From contig JAJZXY010000003.1 of NCBI GenBank assembly GCA_021806165.1, forward strand, positions 62,001 through 126,000: a stretch of 64,000 nucleotides of DNA. Reading direction: 5' to 3'. Each line of letters begins with the position of its first letter. Position 1 is the stretch's first letter. This DNA comes from Thermoplasmata archaeon (GTDB lineage Archaea; Thermoplasmatota; Thermoplasmata; Sysuiplasmatales; Sysuiplasmataceae). Of this stretch, positions 31,089 to 52,941 are shown piece after piece. Under the pieces are notes generated by a model. It saw only the letters and a program-made list of their open reading frames with translations, made no database searches and had not been told where the DNA came from. A program made the translations under genes and the position numbers.

Positions 31089-31856
31089 ATGCCCACCAGC
31101 AGTGAGTTCAGGGGGAGATCAGTCGTGGTAACCGGCGGCACATCCGGCATAGGACTCGCGACCGCCCATATATTCTCATCTCGCGGAGCCAATGTGATTA
31201 TCACAGGAAAGAACAGGGACAAGGGGAAGAAGGCGCTCTCCCAGATGAAAGGCAAGGGGGACGTGGAATTCTTCAAAGGCAACGTTGCCAGCATCCAGGA
31301 TACTGATAGGCTCATGGACCTCGCAAGGAGGAAGCACGGCGGCCTGGACATACTTGTAAACAACGCAGGAGTCTACCTCACCAAGAAGATAGATCAGACC
31401 AGCGAGGAGGAATGGGACTGGGTCATGAACACGAACCTCAAGGGAGTTTACGTCATGAGCAGGTCTTCCATACCCCTTCTCAGGGAGAGCAGGGGCTGCA
31501 TCATTAACGTCGCTTCCGTCAGTGGTCTTGTAGGGGTCAGGAACGAGGCTGCCTACTGTGCCTCCAAGGGAGGTGTGATACAGCTGACAAAGGCCATGGC
31601 ACTCGACTACGCTCCCGATGGCATTCGGGTCAATGCAGTCTGTCCAGGCGATGTTGAAACACCCATGATGTGGGAGGCACTGAACAGGGTGGAGGACAGG
31701 AGCCTTGCAGTCGAGGCGGACAAGGCGCTGCACCCCCTGGGAAGGTTTGGAAGGGCGGATGAGGTTGCGAAGCTGATAGTCTATCTTGCTTCAGAGGATG
31801 CCTCTTTTATCACCGGTTCCGCAGTCAGCATCGATGGAGGATGGAGCGCCTACTGA
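31089..31856 (+). CDS. short-chain dehydrogenase/reductase
   Basis: 255 residues. Classical SDR: TGGTSGIGLATAHIF nucleotide loop, LVNNAGV, catalytic Ser in INVASVSG, and Y-x3-K in AAYCASKGG, with a PG-D-VETPM substrate loop and the FITGSAVSIDGGW ending of FabG/glucose dehydrogenase relatives. Start ATG 31089 lies 26 bases after a TATA box CTATTTTAGT (31058-31067), so the mRNA should be leaderless; the longer frame from 31032 is rejected. Substrate not determinable. Its 3' end overlaps the giant surface-protein gene by 7 bases, convergently. Confidence 0.9.
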   Translation: MPTSSEFRGRSVVVTGGTSGIGLATAHIFSSRGANVIITGKNRDKGKKALSQMKGKGDVEFFKGNVASIQDTDRLMDLARRKHGGLDILVNNAGVYLTKKIDQTSEEEWDWVMNTNLKGVYVMSRSSIPLLRESRGCIINVASVSGLVGVRNEAAYCASKGGVIQLTKAMALDYAPDGIRVNAVCPGDVETPMMWEALNRVEDRSLAVEADKALHPLGRFGRADEVAKLIVYLASEDASFITGSAVSIDGGWSAY

Positions 31857-34800
31857 GAGGCGCTATCGTCTCCCTTTTCCTCCTGAGACGCTGCCGCATC
31901 GGCCTGAGGCTGCGATTCCTGCTGCCTGGGCTTCTCCTCGACCTTTCGGACTATCCTTCTGGGAACCACTATCCTTCTGGGCTCCTGCGGGGCAGGTTTG
32001 CCTTCAGGAGCTGGAGGAGGCGCAGCTGGTGGTCGCGGGGGCTGGTCCTTGTCGCCCGATTCGCCCTGGGACAGCTGTGAGCCGCATTTGACACACTCCT
32101 TTGCAGACTGCGGGTTTGGTTCGCCGCAGACAGGACAGGTGATGATCTTCGCCTTCTTCACATCCTGCTGCTTGGAGAGCCAGTCCTCAAATGTGATGTA
32201 TGTCGACTGCTTCTTCCACCATGTGAGGAATGCCTTCTCGGAGTATTTGTTCCCAAGGTCTATCTTTGCCTGTGCCTTGAACTTGTCAGCATATTCCACA
32301 TACTGCTTCCTGAGCTGGGCTGTGGCATCATCCTCCTGGTCAGATTCACCCTCATCTGCGAACTTGACACCACAAATCGGGCATTCCTTGGAGGATGCGG
32401 GTATCCATGAACTGCAGTTGCTGCATTTTGCAGTGCCGGGTTCGAATTCAACGCTGCAGTACGGGCACTTCCTGGATGTCTCCGGTATGAATGCGCCACA
32501 GTTGCCGCACTCGACCACTCTCGCCAGGCCGTACCTGTATAGGTAGACCGAGAAGCCTACGAATGCACCTATGGCAACTATGATTATCAGCAGCCAGTAT
32601 GTCAGCGGAAGGCCGGTGGATATGCCGCTTGAGACCACATTGAATGACTGCGACGAGCTTACGAACTGTCCGTTGTTGAAGACCTCGAAGTGGTATGAAC
32701 CCTGGGACTCTCCCTGCGGTATCGATATGCGCGCTGTGGCTACGCCGTTCTGGCCGGTAGTGGTCTGCACGTATACACTGCCCTGAGGCACGTTCCTCAG
32801 GTCATAGAGTGTAACAGTCAGCGGGTAATCGGGCATCGGCTTTCCTGTGGATTTCAGGGTGACGCTGATTGTCACACTGACATACGAGCCCGCTTTCACC
32901 GATGAAGAGGACAGGACCACATTGGCGTTCACCTGCGCCCTGGTTATGTTTATGGATATTGCCTGTGCAGCTGCACTCTGCGAGTAGTTGGACTCGAGTA
33001 TTGTCCCATTTGGATTGACAACTGCCCCGAAGAAGAGCTGTTCACGGTTGTATCCGCTCGGCAGCTGTGGAACAGTCCAGACAATGCTTATCAGCTGTAT
33101 CGATCCTGGTCCGATGCTGGGGATTGTGCCGTTTGCTACAGGCTTGGTCAGATTCTGGGAGGAGTTGCCTTCCATTATCACCACAGGGACATTGAGAGCG
33201 CCTGTCTGCCCTGAGTTATCAACCTGAACGTTGAAGGTGACGTTGCTGAACTCCTGGAAGCTGCCCGTGGCATTCATCATCGCAATAGACAGATCCGGCA
33301 GGCTGTAGACATCGACGACAGTCTGGGCAAAGTTGTTGCCATAGCTGATTTCAGTTACGTTCCTGTTAAGGTTGACAGCAGCGCCGACAGTCATGTTGCC
33401 GTAGGACATCGGCACCGACCAGACAGCGCTTACCGGAATTGTGCCGTTGATGGCCAGCGGCCCGACCAGTGAGGTCGTGACATTGACCGGATTGGACCCT
33501 GGGAAGTAGAATGTGACTGTGAAGTTGCTGGTGACAGCGCCGTAACCAAGGTTTGAGACGAGCACATCAACTGTCACGTGTGACGCTTCAACCACCGGGT
33601 TGGACTGGAAGACGATGTCTGTAGGCGTCAGCACAAGGTCGGAGAGCTTTATGTCCAGGCTGGCTGTTGCATAACTGTTCACCTGTATGAGGGGTGAGGT
33701 GTAATGCGCAAGCGATACTGTAACCGGGGTCGAGTACCAGGTGCCGGCATCATTGTATGATGTGTTGACGACGTAATTGCCAGTGTATATGTCATTTCCT
33801 GACCGCAGCAGATCGGACAGCGCAGGGAACAGAGCCACACCGGTTGAATTGGTGGGTCTCTTTGCGTAGATGCTGCCGTTGGGCTGGGTCAGGTTGGAGA
33901 ATGTATAGAGGGTGACATTCGCATCTGATATAGTCGTGCCTGATGGGCCGAATACGGTGATGTAGAGCCATCTGTAGATGTGGACCACGGCATTTGACTG
34001 CTGCGATACATAAGGAGCAGATATGTTGTAGAGGCTCGCAACCTCGTCATACCCGACAGTCAGTGGCTCCGAGTATGTGGTGTTGAATGAGTTGAATATG
34101 GACTTGGAGAACGCGGCAGAGGAGACATTCCCTGAAACAGTGCTGAGGTTGACCCACGCTGCCGAACTACCACCCAGGATGATGTTGACATTGGAGCCTA
34201 TGACTGAGTTCTCAATTACAAGCCTGGAGTTGCCGTACACATAAAGGTTGAGTATCTGGTTAGAGGTAATTACCGAGTTCTTGATGAGAAGTTCTCCGCT
34301 CTGGTTGACAAGGAACGAGTATTCGCTGCCATATGACTCTATGAAGTTCAGGCCGCCGTTGATTATCTCAAGGGATCCGCTCTGCGTCACTACGACATTT
34401 GAGGATATGTTGAGGTTCGACGGTATCATGAAGGGTGAGCTGTGGTTGGAGTTGGAATCGTTCACAACCAGATCCTGCGCTCCAGCCGACAGCTGAACAA
34501 TGAGCACGCTTGAATTCAGGTTACCGGCTGTGCTGTACTGCTGTATCAGCTGCAGCGGGTCGATATAGACGTAAATGGGGACCTGGCCTATGGTGTTAGG
34601 GGTCCAGGCAATCGTGGTTGTGTTTGAACCACCGGCAGAGATGTTCATTACACTCTGCCCTATGAGCGTGCCGCCGACCTGCGGGTTGCCGTAATAGAAT
34701 GCAACTGTGGTGTTGAAGGCTCCTGCCCTTCCAAGGAAGTTCTGGACCGCGGCTGTTATGTCAACGGTCTTGCCGCTGTATGCAGGAGACGGGTTGAATG

Positions 34801-37438
34801 TAATCCCTGAGGAGGGAATCACCAGCTCAGGAAGGTTTGGGTGCACATATACAACCGTCGAGTTTGAGTCCCCTGCGTAACTGGACTCTGGAATTACCCT
34901 CTTCTGGTTCGCAAAGACTGAAATTGTATTGTTACCGGAGGCGTTGAAAAGCCAGGCGAGTGAAACATGTATCGTGGACTGCGGTCCGACTGAAACATTC
35001 ATTGCATATGCGGAAACAAAGTTCCCGTTTGCCCCATCGGTTATGTTAAGCGGGAGTGAACTGACGCCTGTGAGACCGACATCGGAGACATTGAATGAAA
35101 GCGTACCTGTCTGGTTCACGTAAATGAATGACGGTGCGACGTATGGCTGACCGACTACTATCTCGGGGAGCGGCAGGTCCACGCCTATGGTGATGTTGTC
35201 ATCAAGGACCTGGGATGATGCGGTAACTGTGGGATAGGGTGAGAATGACAGAGAGTTGCCATAAGTGGTACCGTTGAAGTGGACGCCCGCCGTGTAGTTA
35301 CCAACAAACGCTGAGTCGGGGAAGGTGGCCGCGTTGATCACATCAGTCATCAGTGGGATAAGCGCCTGGCCAAGGGGGCTTGTTACATTATAATTGGCAG
35401 CACTCTTGCCCATAAACGACAGAACAGCTGCAGGCGGGGTTGTCTGATATGCGTTACCCGGACCGACAAAATATCCTGCCGGCGAGCCTGCAGAGGTGTT
35501 GTCCGGGGTAGAACCCGTGTAGGACATTGATATTGAACTTCCGTTTACCGGCAGACCCTGTTTGCTGTATATTGTGACGTTTGCAAACCTGTAAAGATCA
35601 ATCTGCGGCAGAAGCTGTATCTGGACATTTACATTGTTGAGATAGGTAACAGTGGCTCCGTTGTGAATGTAAATTACCAAGTTCCCTATGCTTGAAAGTG
35701 TCTTGAACCCCAGCGAATAAAGATTTACAGTGTAATGCCCACCAATTCCATTGGATATGTGGATGCCAGTGTTTATTGTGCCAGTTTGACCAATTTCCCC
35801 AACTAGTACAGTTGCTCCGGTTGAAGAATTGCTCGAAATTGATAGAACTGCTGAAGAAACATCTGTGTTAAGAGTCGAATCAGCTGTAACGTTGGTGCCA
35901 TAAGTTTGGAAAACGGCATTTGCAGGTATTGCATAAGAAACTGCGCCATTGGAATCAACGAGTGACAGGCTGTTGCCTCCGGGACCCGTGTTGAGCGGTC
36001 CGAATGTGAGAGGTTTGGCGACCATTGAGGAGGATAGGCCGTACAACGCGGAGGAGTACATTGTGCTTGTGTTGTTGCTCATATCAATGTGCACGTTGTA
36101 GAAGTATGCGTGGGCCGTGTCGGCAATGACAACAGAAGTGTGGTGTTCAGGAGAGGGGCTGTAGTTGGCACCAATGAAGCTGTCAATGGCTGTGAAGCTT
36201 GAGGAGCCGCCTACGGTCACGTTCTTGTATGCATTGCTTTCAAATGTAAATGCAATCCAGAGCTTATTGACCGAGACCACACCGGTTGATGCAGTCGCGT
36301 TGACCCAGGCAATCATCCTGCTCAGATCATTTACGGTCATTGATGTTGGGAGAGCGATTGAAACATTGGAATAGGATGCTGTCGATGGGAGTGCAACTGT
36401 CCCTGCCGGCCTGGATGTGTTTCCATATGCCCAGTTCAGGGAGGTCGCGCCGGCTGACTGCGTCCTGTAGGCTATGTTGAGAGTGGCTGAAGCAATCGGT
36501 TCGCTGACACCCTGAGTGCTGAAATCTGTGACGGACATGGACTGAGCTGCCTGGATTGAGTAGACGCTGGCGTCAAATGCATCCAGGCTCGCCACGGTCT
36601 GGCCGGATGTGGAGTCTGCCAGAGGGGCCGCTGTGTTCCTGGCTGTTGGAACTCCTTCGATGGTGTACTGGACCGTGTTCTTGAAACCGCTGTCAGACGC
36701 GAACGGGTAGCTCTCGGTAAAGATGGCTGAAGCGTTGTAGTCCCCGGTTGTATTGTTCTGGAATACGGAGATCTGGGAGTTTTCCATCAGTATGCTTGCG
36801 CCAAAGAAGGAAGTGACAGGCGGGTTTGCAAAGACGCCGGCCGGGAAGACAGTGCTGTTGATGTAGTTGGAACTGAAGGAAGATGGTGAAAAGCCGCTGA
36901 TGGAGGAGTTCTCCATCGTCAGGCTGCCGCCCGACACCACGAACTGGCCAGGAAAGACAAGCGAGGAGTGCTCAAGCATGGATAGTGAGCCGCCGTCCTG
37001 GACAATCATGCCCAGCACAGGTATGTCATTTATGAGCTGGAGATTGGTGGTAATCGTTGAGTTGTGCATTATGAGCTGGCCGCCGTCCTGGACATTGATG
37101 TGGTATATTGTGGCCGACTCATACCCCGGGAGCGTGTTGGACGAGGCAAACTGGTCAAAGACCATCTTCTCATTGGTGAGCGTTACCACGCCGCCGGATG
37201 CAACCGTAAGATTGCCCTGCATGTACTGTGTGCCTCCGCTCAGGCTCCATGAAGTCATGTTGTAGCCTGTGCCAACGTAGACATCATTGCTGATCGTCTG
37301 TGCGGCGCGCTCCGCAACAGGCGGGCTGCCTGTCGGCGCTGCGCCTGGGTTGAGGGCGCCAGAAAAAACTGTGACAACGAACAGAACCGCTATGAGCAGT
37401 CCGGCAAACCGACCCCGATTTCCATAGAATTTCTTCAT
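31850..37438 (-). CDS. giant surface protein with single membrane anchor and cytosolic zinc ribbons
   Basis: 1862 residues. Signal peptide FAGLLIAVLFVVTVFSGAL, then beta-helix-like segments where 'GG-x-L-x-hydrophobic-x-NS' rungs repeat (GGQLIMHNSTI, GGSLTMENSSI, SGSLEIINGGL, SGELLIKNSVI). Residues ~850-1500 hold several CARDB-type Ig domains. One membrane helix (TYWLLIIIVAIGAFVGFSVYLY) lies near residue 1620. The ~225-residue tail has three zinc ribbons (CGNCGAFIPETSRKCPYC, CSNCSSWIPASSKECPIC, CPVCGEPNPQSAKECVKC) around a small helical domain (SEKAFLTWWKKQ) and a Pro/Arg-rich end. Cytosolic zinc ribbons behind such an ectodomain suggest contact with intracellular partners. TATA at ~37490-37502. 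Confidence 0.8.
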   Translation of the reverse strand: MKKFYGNRGRFAGLLIAVLFVVTVFSGALNPGAAPTGSPPVAERAAQTISNDVYVGTGYNMTSWSLSGGTQYMQGNLTVASGGVVTLTNEKMVFDQFASSNTLPGYESATIYHINVQDGGQLIMHNSTITTNLQLINDIPVLGMIVQDGGSLSMLEHSSLVFPGQFVVSGGSLTMENSSISGFSPSSFSSNYINSTVFPAGVFANPPVTSFFGASILMENSQISVFQNNTTGDYNASAIFTESYPFASDSGFKNTVQYTIEGVPTARNTAAPLADSTSGQTVASLDAFDASVYSIQAAQSMSVTDFSTQGVSEPIASATLNIAYRTQSAGATSLNWAYGNTSRPAGTVALPSTASYSNVSIALPTSMTVNDLSRMIAWVNATASTGVVSVNKLWIAFTFESNAYKNVTVGGSSSFTAIDSFIGANYSPSPEHHTSVVIADTAHAYFYNVHIDMSNNTSTMYSSALYGLSSSMVAKPLTFGPLNTGPGGNSLSLVDSNGAVSYAIPANAVFQTYGTNVTADSTLNTDVSSAVLSISSNSSTGATVLVGEIGQTGTINTGIHISNGIGGHYTVNLYSLGFKTLSSIGNLVIYIHNGATVTYLNNVNVQIQLLPQIDLYRFANVTIYSKQGLPVNGSSISMSYTGSTPDNTSAGSPAGYFVGPGNAYQTTPPAAVLSFMGKSAANYNVTSPLGQALIPLMTDVINAATFPDSAFVGNYTAGVHFNGTTYGNSLSFSPYPTVTASSQVLDDNITIGVDLPLPEIVVGQPYVAPSFIYVNQTGTLSFNVSDVGLTGVSSLPLNITDGANGNFVSAYAMNVSVGPQSTIHVSLAWLFNASGNNTISVFANQKRVIPESSYAGDSNSTVVYVHPNLPELVIPSSGITFNPSPAYSGKTVDITAAVQNFLGRAGAFNTTVAFYYGNPQVGGTLIGQSVMNISAGGSNTTTIAWTPNTIGQVPIYVYIDPLQLIQQYSTAGNLNSSVLIVQLSAGAQDLVVNDSNSNHSSPFMIPSNLNISSNVVVTQSGSLEIINGGLNFIESYGSEYSFLVNQSGELLIKNSVITSNQILNLYVYGNSRLVIENSVIGSNVNIILGGSSAAWVNLSTVSGNVSSAAFSKSIFNSFNTTYSEPLTVGYDEVASLYNISAPYVSQQSNAVVHIYRWLYITVFGPSGTTISDANVTLYTFSNLTQPNGSIYAKRPTNSTGVALFPALSDLLRSGNDIYTGNYVVNTSYNDAGTWYSTPVTVSLAHYTSPLIQVNSYATASLDIKLSDLVLTPTDIVFQSNPVVEASHVTVDVLVSNLGYGAVTSNFTVTFYFPGSNPVNVTTSLVGPLAINGTIPVSAVWSVPMSYGNMTVGAAVNLNRNVTEISYGNNFAQTVVDVYSLPDLSIAMMNATGSFQEFSNVTFNVQVDNSGQTGALNVPVVIMEGNSSQNLTKPVANGTIPSIGPGSIQLISIVWTVPQLPSGYNREQLFFGAVVNPNGTILESNYSQSAAAQAISINITRAQVNANVVLSSSSVKAGSYVSVTISVTLKSTGKPMPDYPLTVTLYDLRNVPQGSVYVQTTTGQNGVATARISIPQGESQGSYHFEVFNNGQFVSSSQSFNVVSSGISTGLPLTYWLLIIIVAIGAFVGFSVYLYRYGLARVVECGNCGAFIPETSRKCPYCSVEFEPGTAKCSNCSSWIPASSKECPICGVKFADEGESDQEDDATAQLRKQYVEYADKFKAQAKIDLGNKYSEKAFLTWWKKQSTYITFEDWLSKQQDVKKAKIITCPVCGEPNPQSAKECVKCGSQLSQGESGDKDQPPRPPAAPPPAPEGKPAPQEPRRIVVPRRIVRKVEEKPRQQESQPQADAAASQEEKGDDSASQ

Positions 37439-37620: not shown

Positions 37621-38529
37621 TCAGGCGATCTTCTTCTTGACTACCTTCCTCATCATGTCCTGGCTGCCATTGCTGCCGCCTTCGGCTTCATGTGTTACCT
37701 TCTGGCCGCAGGAATAGCATATCACCGCATCCTTGCTTATTATGGCGTTGCAGTTGTTGCAGAACATCTCGTCGTCCGCGAGCTCACCCTGCTGTGGAAT
37801 GTCGCCGACCTTGGCGCCGCAGGAATAGCATATCACCGCATCCTTGCTTATTATGGCGTTGCAGTTGTTGCAGAACATCTCGTCGTCAGCAGGCTGCCTC
37901 TGCACCTGCTCCGCAGGCTCAGGATGATTCTGCTCCACGCGGTTCTGGACCGGCTGCGGAGGTTCGCCCTGTATGCTCGCATCTGCGACCTTCATCAAGT
38001 TCAGCTGCTTCCTGAGCGTCTCCTCGAGTGAAACAACAGCCTGCCGCCTGGAAACAACCTGGTCTATTACCTGCCTCAGTTCCTCTTCCTGCCTGAGCAG
38101 TTCGCCCTCCTTGGATGACAGGTTCTGCTGCTGCTCCTTCAGTTCGCCCTCAAGCTTGTTCAGCTCCTCTGCCTTGGCTTCGAGGTTCTGCTCCCTGAAA
38201 TTGAGCAGTTTGTCCTTGTTGTTAAGCTCTATCTCCTTAGCCTGGGACTGGGCAATCTTGTTGTTCAGCGCTGTCTCGGCAGCATGGATATCGGACTCCT
38301 TGTCGCCTATCTTCCTCTCGCGATCGTTGAGGACGGACTGCAGCTCGTTGAGACTGGTCTCCTTGGTATTGAGACCCCTCTCCTTTTCATCGAGCATTGC
38401 CTGCCTGGAAGCGAGCTCGCGCTCCTTCTTGTCCAGGTCTGCGTTCCGCGCATCCATCTCCTCATGTTTCTGCTTGAGTTTCGAAGCGGTCTCCTCAATA
38501 ACCTGCCAAATAGGCGTGTCAGAAGTCAT
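37621..38529 (-). CDS. coiled-coil protein with two tandem zinc ribbons
   Basis: 302 residues. Residues ~10-185 are one uninterrupted, strongly charged coiled coil (E/K/Q/L heptads with repeated LN-x-K/R-E units). A linker then leads to two almost identical zinc ribbons, each with FCNNCNAIISKDAVICYSCG. No signal or membrane segment. The ribbons resemble those in the tail of the neighbouring giant surface protein, and the following gene is a KaiC-like ATPase, so the three may work together. TATA-like AATATAGTC precedes ATG 38529. Confidence 0.75.
   Translation of the reverse strand: MTSDTPIWQVIEETASKLKQKHEEMDARNADLDKKERELASRQAMLDEKERGLNTKETSLNELQSVLNDRERKIGDKESDIHAAETALNNKIAQSQAKEIELNNKDKLLNFREQNLEAKAEELNKLEGELKEQQQNLSSKEGELLRQEEELRQVIDQVVSRRQAVVSLEETLRKQLNLMKVADASIQGEPPQPVQNRVEQNHPEPAEQVQRQPADDEMFCNNCNAIISKDAVICYSCGAKVGDIPQQGELADDEMFCNNCNAIISKDAVICYSCGQKVTHEAEGGSNGSQDMMRKVVKKKIA
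37705..37887. repeat. two identical 72-bp copies, period 111 bp
   Basis: 37705-37776 and 37816-37887 are identical base for base and encode the two zinc ribbons of the coiled-coil protein; the period is exactly 37 codons. Identity at silent positions indicates recent duplication or gene conversion. Confidence 0.85.
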
Positions 38530-38753: not shown

Positions 38754-39455
38754 TCAGTTGGAAAGGAGGGGGCCGAGCACCTGAATTCCGCTCTTGCTTA
38801 CCTCGACCGCATGGCGCTCCATGCTGTGCTCGCATGCCCTCATCTTCTCGACCTGGACAAATCTTGTGATCTTCCCCTTCGTGCTGTCCATTCCAAGGTA
38901 GACCACCCCGTCGCTGAGGAATGCCTCTGAACCTGAATAGAAGCGCCCGTCCGAGACGCTGCCTTCCATTATCAGCATGGTGAACAGTCCCAGATCTCTC
39001 ATGTTCTTGAAGAAGTGGTACATGCTCTTCCTGACAGATGCATCGTCGTCCATCAGTGAATAGAGTGCTCCCAGCGAGTCTATGGCGAGCATCGTGAAGG
39101 CCTTTCCGTGCTTCTGCTTGAAGCCGCGGACCATCTTCTCAATGAGAGCTATGTAGTCCGGGAAATCGTCATCCCCGATGTCCTCCAGCTCCCTGATGTC
39201 CGTAAAGTCCGAGACTACAACATTTTCAGTTGCAGGAATGCCGATGCTCTTCATGTTCCTGGAATGGCTTTCGGATGTCTCCTCCAGCGTCAGGTACATA
39301 CCAACCTGGTCCGAGTTGGCAAGATGCCTGGACATGACCGAAAAGCAGAAGGATGTCTTCATTGAACCAGGCGGGCCGATGACAAGCACAATCTTTGGAA
39401 TGTCAATGTCTGTTCTTAGAACTCTGTCAAGCCCCGATACGGTGTCTCTGAGCAA
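38754..39455 (-). CDS. KaiC-like (RecA superfamily) ATPase
   Basis: 233 residues from TTG 39455; no ATG is in frame. Single KaiC-like domain: TVSGLDRVL (the TG-x-x-GLD region), P-loop GPPGSMKTSF (27-36, Met in place of the usual second Gly), and Walker B TMLAIDSLGALYSL. Relatives include archaeal KaiC homologues, GvpD and ArlH, mostly regulators of motility or surface structures. A TATA box CTTTATATTG at ~39492-39500 gives a ~15-25-base leader. Tail-to-head with the coiled-coil zinc-ribbon gene. Confidence 0.75.
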   Translation of the reverse strand: MLRDTVSGLDRVLRTDIDIPKIVLVIGPPGSMKTSFCFSVMSRHLANSDQVGMYLTLEETSESHSRNMKSIGIPATENVVVSDFTDIRELEDIGDDDFPDYIALIEKMVRGFKQKHGKAFTMLAIDSLGALYSLMDDDASVRKSMYHFFKNMRDLGLFTMLIMEGSVSDGRFYSGSEAFLSDGVVYLGMDSTKGKITRFVQVEKMRACEHSMERHAVEVSKSGIQVLGPLLSN

Positions 39456-39574: not shown

Positions 39575-42214
39575 CTATTCCTCGTCTTCAGGCTCCTCTC
39601 TCGGAAATATCATCTTGTCATCCCTCGGTTCTGGAGAGTTCTCCTCCCTGGGTCTGGCTGCTGTCTGGGAACGGACCTGTTCCTCCCTTTCTCCCTCCCT
39701 GATTATGCTCTCCTCCAGCTCCGAGCCGACAAGCCTTGCAGTAGCCGTCACCTTGTCACCCTCGGCCAGGCGCATTATTGCCACGCCCTGGGTGTTCCTG
39801 CCCATGACCCTTATGTCCTCAATGGGTATCCTGATCATCATGCCGCCCTGCGAGGTGACAAGGACCTCGTCCCCGGGCAGGAATTCCCTGACGGAGACCA
39901 CCTTGCCGTTCCTTTCGGTGGTTTTGATGGTTATGACACCCTTGCCCCCCCTGCGTGTCTTGCGGTACTCGCCAACCCAGGAGGGTTTTCCGAACCCGTT
40001 TTCGGTTATTGTAAGCAGCACATTGCCCTCGGAGGAAGATGCTTCCATGCTCACAACCTCATCGCCCCTCCTGAGGCTGATGCCACGGACGCCCGTGGCC
40101 TGCCTTCCCATTGGCCTCACGTTGGACTCGTCAAACCTTATGACAAATCCATCCCTTGTTGCGAGCATCATGTCAGCACTCCCGTCTGTAACCACCGTGC
40201 CTATAACCTCATCACCCGGTTCAAGGCCTATGGCTATGATCCCGTTGGTCCTTACATGCGAGTAGGCGATGAGGGATGTCTTCTTCACCTTCCCGTTCTT
40301 GGTTGCAAAGAAGAGGTACTTCTCCAGCTGGAACTCCTTCAGGGGTATGTTGTCTATGATCCTCTCCCCTTCATCCAGCCTTGGCAGTAGGTTGACAATC
40401 GGGCGACCGGCACTGTGCCTCGAGCCGGCGGGAATCTGGTAGGCCTTCAGCCAGTACACCCTGCCCCGGTTGGTGAAGAACAGTATGTAGCTGTGGGTCG
40501 AGGTGACGAACATGTCGACAAGGTAGTCCTCCTCATGAGTGTCGACGCCTGTCAGTCCCCTGCCTCCCCTGTGCTGCTTCTCATATGTGACAAGGGGAAC
40601 GCGCTTGACATATCCCCTGTTTGTCACTGTGACTATGACCTCCTCCTCGGGTATAAGGTCCTCTATGGACATCTCGAGGCCTTCGGAGTTTATCTCGGTA
40701 AGCCGTGCATCCCCATACTTGCCCCTGATTTCACCAAGCTCCCTCTTTATGATGTCGAGAATCCTGCCTTCATCCGCCAGTGTCTTCTCCAGCTCCCCTA
40801 TGGTTGAGAGCAGCTCCCTGTACTCGGCATGGATGGCATCCATTTCAAGTCCGGTCAGTTTCTGGAGGCGCATATCGAGTATTGCCTTTGCCTGCTCCTC
40901 GGTAAGTGTAAACGGGGCACCGGCAGATGCCTCGCCAAGGACAGCGGGTACCCTGGACCAGTCGCTGACGGAGGTCAGCTTTTCCCTTGCCTCCTCCGGG
41001 GATGATGAGGAGCGGATGAGTTCAATCATCCTGTCAATGTTGTCGACCGCGACCATCAGTCCGGCGACGATATGCATGCGCTTCCTTGCCTGCCGGAGGT
41101 CAAATTCTGCCCTCTTCCTCACAATCTGCCTCCTGAAGTCTATGAAGCTGCGCATCAGCTCCTTCAGTGACAGAACCTTTGGCTGGTTGTCAACGAGGGC
41201 TATGTTGATTATCCCGAATGTTACCTCCATCTGCGAATGCGAGTACAGCTGGTTGAGGACGACATCATCCATTGCATCGCGCTTCAGTTCGATCACGATG
41301 CGCATCCCGTCGCGGTCTGACTCATCCCTCAGGTCAGATATGCCCTCCACCTTCTTCTCCTTGACAAGCCTGGCAATGTCCTCGAGCAGCGAAGACTTGT
41401 TCACCTGGTAGGGGATTTCGCTGACAATTATGCGCCTCCGGTTTCCCTCCTCTTCAGTCTGGGCCCTGGCTCGGACCGTGATCTTGCCCCGCCCTGTCGT
41501 GTATGCATCCACCAGTCCGCGAAGGCCGTACACGATGCCGCCGGTGGGGAAATCCGGGCCCTTGATCCGCTCCATGAGCTGGGCAAGGTCTGCATCCGGA
41601 TTGTCGATGAGGTGAATCAGCCCGTCCACCACCTCATTGAGGTTGTGCGGCGGCATGTTGGTAGCCATTCCGACCGCAATTCCGTTTGAACCGTTGACAA
41701 GGAGATTCGGGAATTTGGACGGCAGGACCTCAGGCTCCTTGAGGGTCGCATCGAAATTGTCATTCATCATGACGGTTTCCCTGTCGAGGTCCTGCAGCAT
41801 CTCCTCCGCTATCCTGGATAGCCTGCACTCGGTGTACCTCATGGCTGCAGCCGCATCACCGTCAATGCTGCCGAAATTGCCCTGGCCGTCTATCAGGGGG
41901 TAGCGCATGGAGAATGGCTGCGCCATCCTGACGAGTGTGTCGTAGACAGCCTGGTCCCCGTGCGGATGATACTTTCCCAGGACGTCGCCGACAATCCTGG
42001 CACACTTCTTGTACGCCCTGTTGGAGTTGGCCCCCAGCTCATTCATGCCGAAGAGAATTCGCCTGTGGGCAGGCTTGAGGCCGTCGCGCACATCAGGCAG
42101 CGCCCTGCCGACAATGACGCTCATGGCGTAGTCGATGTACGACTTGCGCATCTCAATCTCGATCGGCCTGTTGACAATCTTCTGTCCCGGTTCAGGAGTA
42201 TCATCTGCCGCCAT
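39575..42214 (-). CDS. gyrA: DNA gyrase subunit A
   Basis: 879 residues. Breakage-reunion domain with catalytic Tyr127 in [24 protein letters not shown]-terminal beta-pinwheel with a GyrA-box-like QHRGGRG, which marks gyrase rather than topoisomerase IV. With GyrB it introduces negative supercoils; euryarchaea obtained it from bacteria. At the position equivalent to E. coli Ser83 (quinolone target) this protein has Gln88. Acidic C-terminal tail. Start ATG 42214 is ten bases after gyrB's stop. Confidence 0.96.
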
Positions 42215-42224
42215 TTACAAGCAC

Positions 42225-44219
<1,995 letters not shown>

Positions 44220-50753: not shown

Positions 50754-52850
50754 ATGATATCCGAAGGGGAGCCTCCCAGGAACAGACAAATCAGACTTCT
50801 CACTGGCGGATCCAAGGTCATGAAGGAGCTCTCCAGGGAGATGAAGGAGGCAGGCGGCTCCGCAATAATCGTCCTGGAGCATGAGTCGAAGGGGAGGGCA
50901 TTCCGTGGTTACATATCATTCAAGAACGGCATGATTGTAGAGGCACTCTACAAGGAGAGTGCCAGAAATGGAGCCTCCAGTTCCAAGAGCGGGAAGGAGG
51001 CCCTGATGAGGGTATGGAAGGAGGCGCTTGACCCGGAAGTAAAGGTCAAGGTCTACGACGTTGCCCCCGCGGATGGCCGTGAATCGGTTTCAAAGAGCAG
51101 GGATGTAATGGCTGCAGGCGCATCGGTAAGGAAGGTCAAGAAGATCAGGAGCAAGCCACAGGAGGACACAACCCTGGTACAGGTCAGGAGCTGGAAGGAG
51201 GAGGGTTACAACACAGGGGATCTTGAGCAGAAGATCGAGGCGGGGGATGCCCAGAGCTTCAGGCTCTATATGGAATATGACGCAAAAATCAAGAGACTCA
51301 AGAATCTGGAAAGCGCGCTTGAGGGGTTGAAAGGCGCAGGCTATGACGCGGACTACAGCAGGCTTGCGAAGATAGTCAGGGAGCCGCAGCGCGTGTCTGA
51401 GCTGGAACTTGGCATAGCTCTTCTCAGGAAGAAGACCGAAAGCAGGAAGGAGCGTGGTGGAAGGCGCCGTGAGGAACTGCAGGAACTTCCAAGCGACTAC
51501 GATGAGGTTTACAGCGTGGTCTTCGGGGCTGAGAAGACAAGGCCGGCCGACGGCAGATGCCCGAACTGCGGAGCAAAGGTCAATTCGGCATTCTGCGACA
51601 TATGCGGCCATTCTGTCCTCCATGACACCTCTGCAGGCTCCGGCCTGAGTCCGGGCCTGAGCTTCAACAATTTCATTGTGGGTCCGAGCAACAAGTTTGC
51701 ATATGCAGCGTGTGTGTCGATAGCCAACGCCAGTCCGGACCAGTACAACCCGCTGTTCCTGTATTCCCAGACAGGGCTGGGCAAGACTCACCTCCTGAAT
51801 GCAATAGGAAACCATGTCAGGATGGAAAGAAAGGACGCCTCCGTTCTGTTTCTCGGCGCCGACAGGTTTGTGGACGAGCTCTACTCAAAGAGGGAGAACA
51901 TTGAAAGTTATCTCTCCTCCCTCAGGAAGCTCGACATGCTGCTGCTGGACGACATACAGTTCATGGCAGGGAAGGAAGAGGCGCAGGGTCACCTGCTGGG
52001 GCTGATAGTATCAATGCTTCGAAATGGGAAGAATATAATCATCGCGGGTGACAGGCAGCCGAAGGACATCCAGGGGCTTGAAAGCCAGCTCGCTTCAAGG
52101 CTTGAGTCGGGACTGCTGGTTGATATGCGCCAGCCTGACCTTGAGATGAGGACAAAGATCCTCGAGATGAAGATCAGGGAGGAGGGATACCAGATGCCTC
52201 AGGCGGTCATAAAGTACATAGCTGAAACCGTCGAGGACAACATAAGGGAGCTTACAGGTTCACTCAACAGGGTCGTGGCCTACAGTACCCTTATGAAGAT
52301 TGCACCCACGGTCGAGACTGCAAAGAGGATACTGAGGTCAAGCCCGCAGGAGCAGAGGAAGGATAAGAGTGGAAGGATAGAGCTCAGGCCGGGGCACGGG
52401 TACATCATAGAGGAGGACAGGGCCAGCCTCTGCCACATGCTTGTACAGGAGAAGCTCCAGGAGAACTGGACTGCGCTTGACATCTCGAGGGTCAACCCCA
52501 CGAGACTTCGGACAAAGTTCCCGGGGCTGGACAGGGCGAGGGTAGTGTGGCTGACAGACAGGGAGAGCGACAAGGAAATCACACTCCAGCCTTCCCTCGA
52601 GAAGATTGAATATGAGATAAAGGGGTTCATGGAATCAGCTTCCAGGGGGAACGGCAGCGCGATCGTGAACATAGACGATCTGCAGTATGTCATCAGCAAC
52701 ACCAACTTCGAGGGGACGGTAAGGCTGCTCCGCAGAATGGCGGATGAGATGTCGGAGCGCAATTCTGTCCTGATAATCTCGGTGGGCAAGGAGACGCTGG
52801 CCAAGCAGGAGATTGCAATACTCGAGAGGGAGCTTGAACTGATTCAGTGA
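50754..52850 (+). CDS. DnaA-like AAA+ ATPase fused to zinc ribbon and DUF835-like domain
   Basis: 698 residues. N-terminal ~105 residues resemble DUF4388-type domains (GYISFKNGMIVEALY). A charged helical linker follows, then a zinc ribbon CPNCGAKVNSAFCDIC (~269-284). Residues ~301-530 match the AAA+ domain of bacterial DnaA: LSFNNFIVGPSNKFAYAA, Walker A QTGLGKTHLLNAIG (~339-352), Walker B LLLDDIQFMAGKEEAQ (~396-411), AGDRQPKDI, ASRLESGLLVDMRQPDLEMRTKIL and sensor 2 NIRELTGSLNRV. No DnaA domain IV (DnaA-box helix-turn-helix) is present; residues ~541-698 look like DUF835 (GYIIEEDRASLC...LDISRVNPTRLRTKFP...VVWLT...DDLQYVISNTNFEGTVRLLR). TATA TTTTTAATATC at ~50718-50728. Role unknown; probably regulatory rather than replication initiation. 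Confidence 0.82.
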   Translation: MISEGEPPRNRQIRLLTGGSKVMKELSREMKEAGGSAIIVLEHESKGRAFRGYISFKNGMIVEALYKESARNGASSSKSGKEALMRVWKEALDPEVKVKVYDVAPADGRESVSKSRDVMAAGASVRKVKKIRSKPQEDTTLVQVRSWKEEGYNTGDLEQKIEAGDAQSFRLYMEYDAKIKRLKNLESALEGLKGAGYDADYSRLAKIVREPQRVSELELGIALLRKKTESRKERGGRRREELQELPSDYDEVYSVVFGAEKTRPADGRCPNCGAKVNSAFCDICGHSVLHDTSAGSGLSPGLSFNNFIVGPSNKFAYAACVSIANASPDQYNPLFLYSQTGLGKTHLLNAIGNHVRMERKDASVLFLGADRFVDELYSKRENIESYLSSLRKLDMLLLDDIQFMAGKEEAQGHLLGLIVSMLRNGKNIIIAGDRQPKDIQGLESQLASRLESGLLVDMRQPDLEMRTKILEMKIREEGYQMPQAVIKYIAETVEDNIRELTGSLNRVVAYSTLMKIAPTVETAKRILRSSPQEQRKDKSGRIELRPGHGYIIEEDRASLCHMLVQEKLQENWTALDISRVNPTRLRTKFPGLDRARVVWLTDRESDKEITLQPSLEKIEYEIKGFMESASRGNGSAIVNIDDLQYVISNTNFEGTVRLLRRMADEMSERNSVLIISVGKETLAKQEIAILERELELIQ

Positions 52851-52855
52851 AATGG

Positions 52856-52941
52856 CGCCGTTGGACGGATTTGAACCGTCGACCTTATGGTAACTGCGCA
52901 TGGTTAACAGCCACACGCTCTACCTGCTGAGCTACAACGGC
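52856..52941 (-). tRNA. tRNA-Asn(GTT) with a 13-nt intron
   Basis: Acceptor GCCGTTG/CAACGGC, D stem GCTC/GAGC, anticodon stem TGTGG/CCATA, loop CTGTTAA with anticodon GTT, T arm GACGG-TTCAAAT-CCGTC, discriminator G. A 13-base intron (52892-52904) sits between positions 37 and 38. As in the tRNA-Phe gene, loop CTG can pair with CAG in the intron, leaving 3-base bulges. TATA-like GTTTTAATAAC on the minus strand at ~52967-52977. Confidence 0.88.

Follow-up and report, generated by a model that had tools for sequence, protein, structure and literature searches.

A DnaA-type AAA+ core joined to a KaiC-like DUF835 domain in Thermoplasmatota: a putative assembly switch for KaiC-type signaling

The window (the whole stretch of 64,000 nucleotides that was analyzed) encodes at positions 50754-52850 (+) an archaeal protein of 698 amino acids in which Pfam and NCBIfam profiles recognize the AAA+ core of DnaA, without domain IV, and a C-terminal DUF835 domain. 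In the usual view, DnaA initiates replication in bacteria and Orc1/Cdc6 does so in archaea; the source organism, a relative of Candidatus Sysuiplasma (Thermoplasmatota), carries two genes for Orc1/Cdc6 (profile scores of 420 and 269 bits), neither adjacent to the DnaA-DUF835 gene. We lean slightly toward the reading that it is a KaiC-type signaling protein whose DnaA-derived core, acquired horizontally early in Thermoplasmatota, serves as an ATP-dependent assembly switch.

The protein begins with a family-conserved alpha/beta domain (aa 1-108, 50754..51077, +; AlphaFold mean pLDDT 84), followed by a helical linker module containing WKEEGY and delimited by sequence inspection (about aa 147-249, 51192..51500, +), segments related to which recur in the 1407-aa relative L047. 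A zinc ribbon of the form CPNC...CDIC (aa 269-284, 51558..51605, +; CxxC at 269 and 281) lies ahead of the core, as had been claimed. The DnaA-type AAA+ core and its lid, placed by profile matches and residue mapping, occupy aa 301-530 (51654..52343, +), with Walker A K344, Walker B D399/D400, sensor 1 D433, arginine finger R449, and sensor 2 R498, and DUF835 closes the protein (aa 543-698, 52380..52847, +). The contig is not a bacterial contaminant, because an archaeal large-subunit rRNA gene lies within the window about 4 kb from the reading frame; the presence of the gene in dozens of relatives also rules this out. A tRNA gene on the opposite strand (52856-52941, -) ends 6 bp past the stop codon, and close homologs are also flanked by short ORFs resembling antisense tRNA.

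The motifs on which the first-pass annotation based a DnaA-type core are all in the reading frame: Walker A (GLGKTH), Walker B (LLLDDIQ), box VII (SRLESGL), and sensor 2 (NIREL). The core itself is also borne out, since Bac_DnaA (PF00308) matches aa 302-457 with 162 bits (E 1.3e-47) and the NCBIfam DnaA model TIGR00362 matches with 269.8 bits over model positions 100-344 of 437, which corresponds to domain III without domain IV; the full-length equivalog cut-off of 343.9 is not reached by the 698-aa protein. The IstB, DnaC, and DnaI models score far lower against the same protein, at no more than 46 bits. The Hda model TIGR03420 gives 101.5 bits, under its cut-off of 194.8, and a profile of 25 archaeal cores gives 336 bits against Bacillus subtilis DnaA (8bv3/8btg) compared with about 60 bits against Hda structures. 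Membership of Hda or of IstB/DnaC is ruled out by these profile scores. Domain IV (Bac_DnaA_C, PF08299), also claimed to be absent, has no match in the protein or in the whole genome, while control bacteria did match; a hidden domain IV is ruled out by the same searches.

In the place of domain IV, where it had been expected, DUF835 (PF05763) matches aa 563-694 with 72 bits (cut-off 33.1, E 5.5e-20). A DUF835 model built from 79 sequences (mean pLDDT 94) matches RecA/KaiC proteins in Foldseek searches, the top matches including FlaH, the archaellum ATPase (E 3e-5, TMq 0.66), and the P-loop GxxxxGK[ST] is absent from the DUF835 alignment consensus. In the model, the DUF835 fold resembles that of a KaiC/FlaH ATPase that has been inactivated, with no Walker A motif; both the model fold and the missing P-loop agree with Galperin et al. 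2018 (PMC5847659), where DUF835 is listed as an inactivated form of the KaiC domain that is found joined to archaeal response regulators. The genome encodes about nine more DUF835 domains, one of them in a GAF/PAS protein and another in a tRNA synthetase fusion. The synthetase (L180:4924-8613, G000 C20, outside the window) is a class I enzyme of 1230 aa with a C-terminal DUF835 and resembles isoleucyl-tRNA synthetase; Sysuiplasma relatives have DUF835 ORFs of similar length. For the N-terminal domain, described earlier as DUF4388-like, a weak similarity holds and the family assignment does not: PF14332 gives 15.1 bits against a cut-off of 25. With E up to 1, PF14332 matches 4 of 24 family members (best 5e-4), and sub-threshold similarity to DUF2226 is seen in more members than similarity to DUF4388. 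The AlphaFold model of the domain has no significant match among PDB folds, and a clear identity was set aside, as sequence and structure searches yielded weak leads only.

Residues of 57 fusion-family cores and 13 bacterial rows were mapped on E. coli DnaA numbering, the E. coli residues concerned serving in nucleotide binding, hydrolysis, inter-subunit sensing, and ssDNA contact. The switch residues are kept nearly throughout: K178 and D235 in 56/57 cores each, D269 in 52/57, R334 in 54/57, and the arginine finger R285 in 50/57, with lysine in 4 more. The window protein keeps them all (Walker A and B, sensor 1, R285, and sensor 2 R334). The ssDNA-contact residue K243 is kept in 21 of the 57 cores vs 12 of the 13 bacteria, and V211 and R245 drift across the family, R245 varying in the bacterial rows as well. 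At V211, K243, and R245 the window protein has Y, K, and E, keeping one of the three (K243, here K407); its initiator-specific segment (ISM) is shortened, with R245 changed to Glu and R281 to Gln. The core of L010 carries the full GKERSQEE ssDNA patch. Judged from sequence, this pattern would fit an ATP switch or oligomer and would be less easily squared with origin melting. The Walker and arginine-finger residues would be required just as much for DNA remodeling, and this counts against the signaling reading.

The DnaA-DUF835 protein is not an isolated oddity but a family recurring over much of the phylum. A match to it was found in 45 of 60 related genomes, some in DUF835 only, with the nearest relatives in Candidatus Sysuiplasma and Thermoplasmata MAGs, and 30 homologs share the order N-domain, helical linker, usually a zinc ribbon, DnaA core, and DUF835. 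In a phylum-wide sample, PF00308 at E 1e-12 matches 37 of 293 genomes. More distant members arrange the parts differently: the core and DUF835 are separate genes, adjacent or near-adjacent, in L048 and L051, and a short 426-aa form of the core protein is found in L054, L055, and L058. The 1407-aa protein of L047 (6976-11199) consists of an N-domain, a long repetitive helical region, the DnaA core, and C-terminal zinc ribbons. The protein at L053:4995-6587 has a signal peptide, an fn3 domain, and a TM segment ahead of the core, the first and last of these recognized by reading the sequence, and a KaiC gene follows two ORFs further downstream. A different branch of the phylum encodes the domains of the fusion protein separately, with a diverged DnaA-like ORF (weak core) directly behind an ORF for the N-domain and DUF835 (L066:2867-7014).

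The phylogeny against bacterial DnaA that had been suggested places the archaeal cores among bacterial DnaA, both in a tree built from 82 cores and in one made with more care from 55, with moderate support for the main fusion clade (SH-aLRT 86 in one tree, 80/90 in the other). Identity reaches 65% between the L047 core and B. subtilis DnaA and 57% between the L010 core and Priestia DnaA. Because the trees place it there, at up to 65% identity, the core is most likely of bacterial origin, and transfer from bacteria to archaea early in the phylum, in one or more events, would be the simplest reading. That the core is instead an ancient, vertically inherited archaeal DnaA, a view compatible with any function, would be consistent with the poorly supported deep forks of the trees and with a single archaeal clade not being rejected (p-AU 0.30). 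We regard it as very improbable, as PF00308 at E 1e-12 has no match in the four archaea from other phyla that served as controls, and a divergence as old as the two domains themselves would hardly leave 57-65% identity to Firmicutes DnaA.

In the window, a KaiC-family ATPase (38754..39455, -) adjoins cc9, a coiled-coil protein with a double zinc ribbon (37621..38529, -), next to pep10 (31850..37438, -), a surface protein of 1862 aa that combines CARDB repeats with a C-terminal TM segment (recognized by reading the sequence) and, behind this segment, zinc ribbons; pep10 is conserved over much of Thermoplasmata. The genes for DNA gyrase subunits A (39575..42214, -) and B (42225..44153, -) follow. 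Homologous loci show two conserved arrangements. In one, pep10, cc9, KaiC, gyrA, and gyrB lie on one strand, followed on the other by thiC and the DnaA-DUF835 gene; it is found in Methanomassiliicoccales-type and other lineages and in Sysuiplasma relatives, where thiC and ZnR1 are missing. In the other, the order is PGK, DnaA-DUF835, ZnR1, KaiC, cc9, pep10, with no gyrase between KaiC and the DnaA-DUF835 gene. ZnR1, a zinc-ribbon/helical-repeat gene, stands tail to tail with the DnaA-DUF835 gene in most homologous loci, with a median gap of about 12 bp. The window has the first arrangement, with 6.6 kb of other genes between gyrB and the DnaA-DUF835 gene, and the nearest ZnR1 homolog of its genome is on another contig. 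The set of genes is therefore maintained despite rearrangement, with KaiC, cc9, and pep10 located past gyrAB in one case and immediately after the DnaA/ZnR1 pair in the other. In the gyrA of L060 and L151 (Methanomassiliicoccales-type), an apparent intein-like insertion follows GECFVAGT.

KaiC shares its phyletic pattern with the DnaA-DUF835 ortholog: the two agree in 59 of 60 genomes (37 with both, 22 with neither, 1 discordant), in a table for which orthologs were called by hand from match coordinates, kinship was ignored, and the call for G057 is uncertain. The single discordant genome is 57% complete. The link of pep10 is looser, because 11 genomes carry it without the ortholog. Kinship aside, the DnaA-DUF835 protein is linked to an active KaiC ATPase both genomically and phyletically; the neighborhood and co-occurrence are phylogenetically correlated, which weakens them as evidence for signaling.

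In a set of Methanomassiliicoccales-type genomes the core has been lost at the same locus. Orthologs of 334-370 aa made up of the N-domain and DUF835 occupy the position X in gyrB-thiC-X-ZnR1 (L127, L137, L138, L140, L141, L143, L144, L146, L147, L148, and L151), and the core-less protein of L135 has a different context and retains the zinc ribbon. Nine non-redundant core-less proteins form one clade in the DUF835 tree (SH-aLRT 99) nested within core-bearing relatives (99, 97), so absence of the core reflects loss. The constant part is the N-domain, DUF835, and ZnR1, and the DnaA engine is therefore dispensable. This loss in place makes an essential role in initiation less likely and speaks for an ATP switch that a KaiC-type signaling module can do without.

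In the signaling reading, the core would bind ATP, and its conserved arginine finger and sensor 2 would drive a head-to-tail, DnaA-like assembly, an ATP-controlled switch between monomer and oligomer. The oligomer would gather the C-terminal DUF835 domains, which as inactivated KaiC folds probably dock on the active KaiC ATPase of the same neighborhood; the N-terminal domain and zinc ribbon may be input or partner-binding parts, with a signal possibly coming from pep10. ATPase activity, oligomerization, docking, the direction of the signal, and the output are all predictions. The first-pass annotation had proposed that the oligomerization engine is reused for some regulatory or DNA-remodeling task. 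Reuse remains the likeliest reading, and oligomerization is suggested by conserved residues only; of the two tasks, regulation in the form of KaiC-type signaling is favored by the context, the DUF835 fold, the relaxed ssDNA contacts, the loss of the core, and the membrane-anchored relative. More broadly, we give even credence to the idea that the phylum made the DnaA assembly engine an exchangeable switch within a KaiC-type system, possibly linked to the membrane, that comprises DnaA-DUF835, KaiC, the zinc-ribbon partners, and the surface protein, and that some lineages later discarded the engine but kept the other parts.

Two DNA-centered functions compete with signaling. A replication regulator, Hda-like or DnaA-like, might modulate initiation by Orc1/Cdc6, with the core on origin ssDNA and the zinc ribbon on dsDNA. 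The DnaA-grade core with its intact ATP site, the zinc ribbon, K407 in the window protein, the complete patch of L010, and the DNA genes gyrBA, ogg, and lhr near it in one arrangement are all in keeping with this. Such a regulator is nevertheless unlikely, given that domain IV is absent, that two Orc1/Cdc6 genes are already there and lie elsewhere, that ssDNA and ISM positions are relaxed family-wide and the ISM shortened in the window protein, that Methanomassiliicoccales-type lineages have lost the core in place, and that L053 is membrane-anchored.

The gyrase genes could hint at a role in DNA topology, which counts against signaling, and a remodeler of chromosome topology or the nucleoid tied to gyrase might even have been co-acquired with gyrBA from a dnaA-dnaN-recF-gyrB-gyrA cluster. 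Divergent gyrB and gyrA lie upstream in many lineages and in the window, and archaeal gyrase is of bacterial origin through one transfer (PMC9348778). The proposal is nonetheless improbable, less credible than a replication regulator: in one large sub-clade the gene for this protein is accompanied by PGK and KaiC in place of gyrBA, no gyrase lies close to the DnaA core in its divergent lineages, thiC is conserved as a neighbor to the same degree, and many archaea outside Thermoplasmatota have gyrase (PMC9348778) with no known DnaA core. Co-acquisition is unsupported outside some sub-clades and is kept as a rival.

In the literature searched, which covers few subscription journals, no account turned up of an archaeal DnaA in connection with DUF835, Thermoplasmata, Methanomassiliicoccales, or KaiC, and the reuse of a bacterial replication core in an archaeal signaling-like protein is apparently large and undescribed. 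If true, phylum-wide non-initiator DnaA cores in archaea would reveal what the DnaA engine is capable of once DNA boxes are no longer recognized, would exemplify the passage of replication machinery from one domain of life to another with a change of job, and would give DUF835 and KaiC, abundant archaeal regulators little studied by experiment, a set of partners that can be tested.

Among known systems, domain III of bacterial DnaA shares the AAA+ core, the DnaA-specific motifs, the box VII arginine finger, sensor 2, and the lid; the archaeal protein differs in having no domain IV or recognizable domain I, in its flanking archaeal N-domain, zinc ribbon, and DUF835, in its relaxed ssDNA contacts, and in a host with Orc1/Cdc6. 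Hda, the regulatory inactivator of DnaA, is likewise a DnaA-like AAA+ core without domain IV, but the archaeal core is nearer to DnaA proper, the protein is multidomain, and its genome has no DnaA initiator to inactivate. The PATAN/DUF4388 regulators of type IV pili and polarity resemble the N-domain weakly in sequence, but the window protein falls under the Pfam cut-off and has no significant structural match to support the relation. With the archaeal DUF835/iKaiC proteins and KaiC-type signaling hubs (PMC5847659) the window protein shares the KaiC-fold C-terminal DUF835 and the conserved KaiC ATPase neighbor, and its genome likewise encodes several more DUF835 proteins, among them one with GAF and PAS domains; a fusion to a DnaA core has no description among these systems in the searchable literature.
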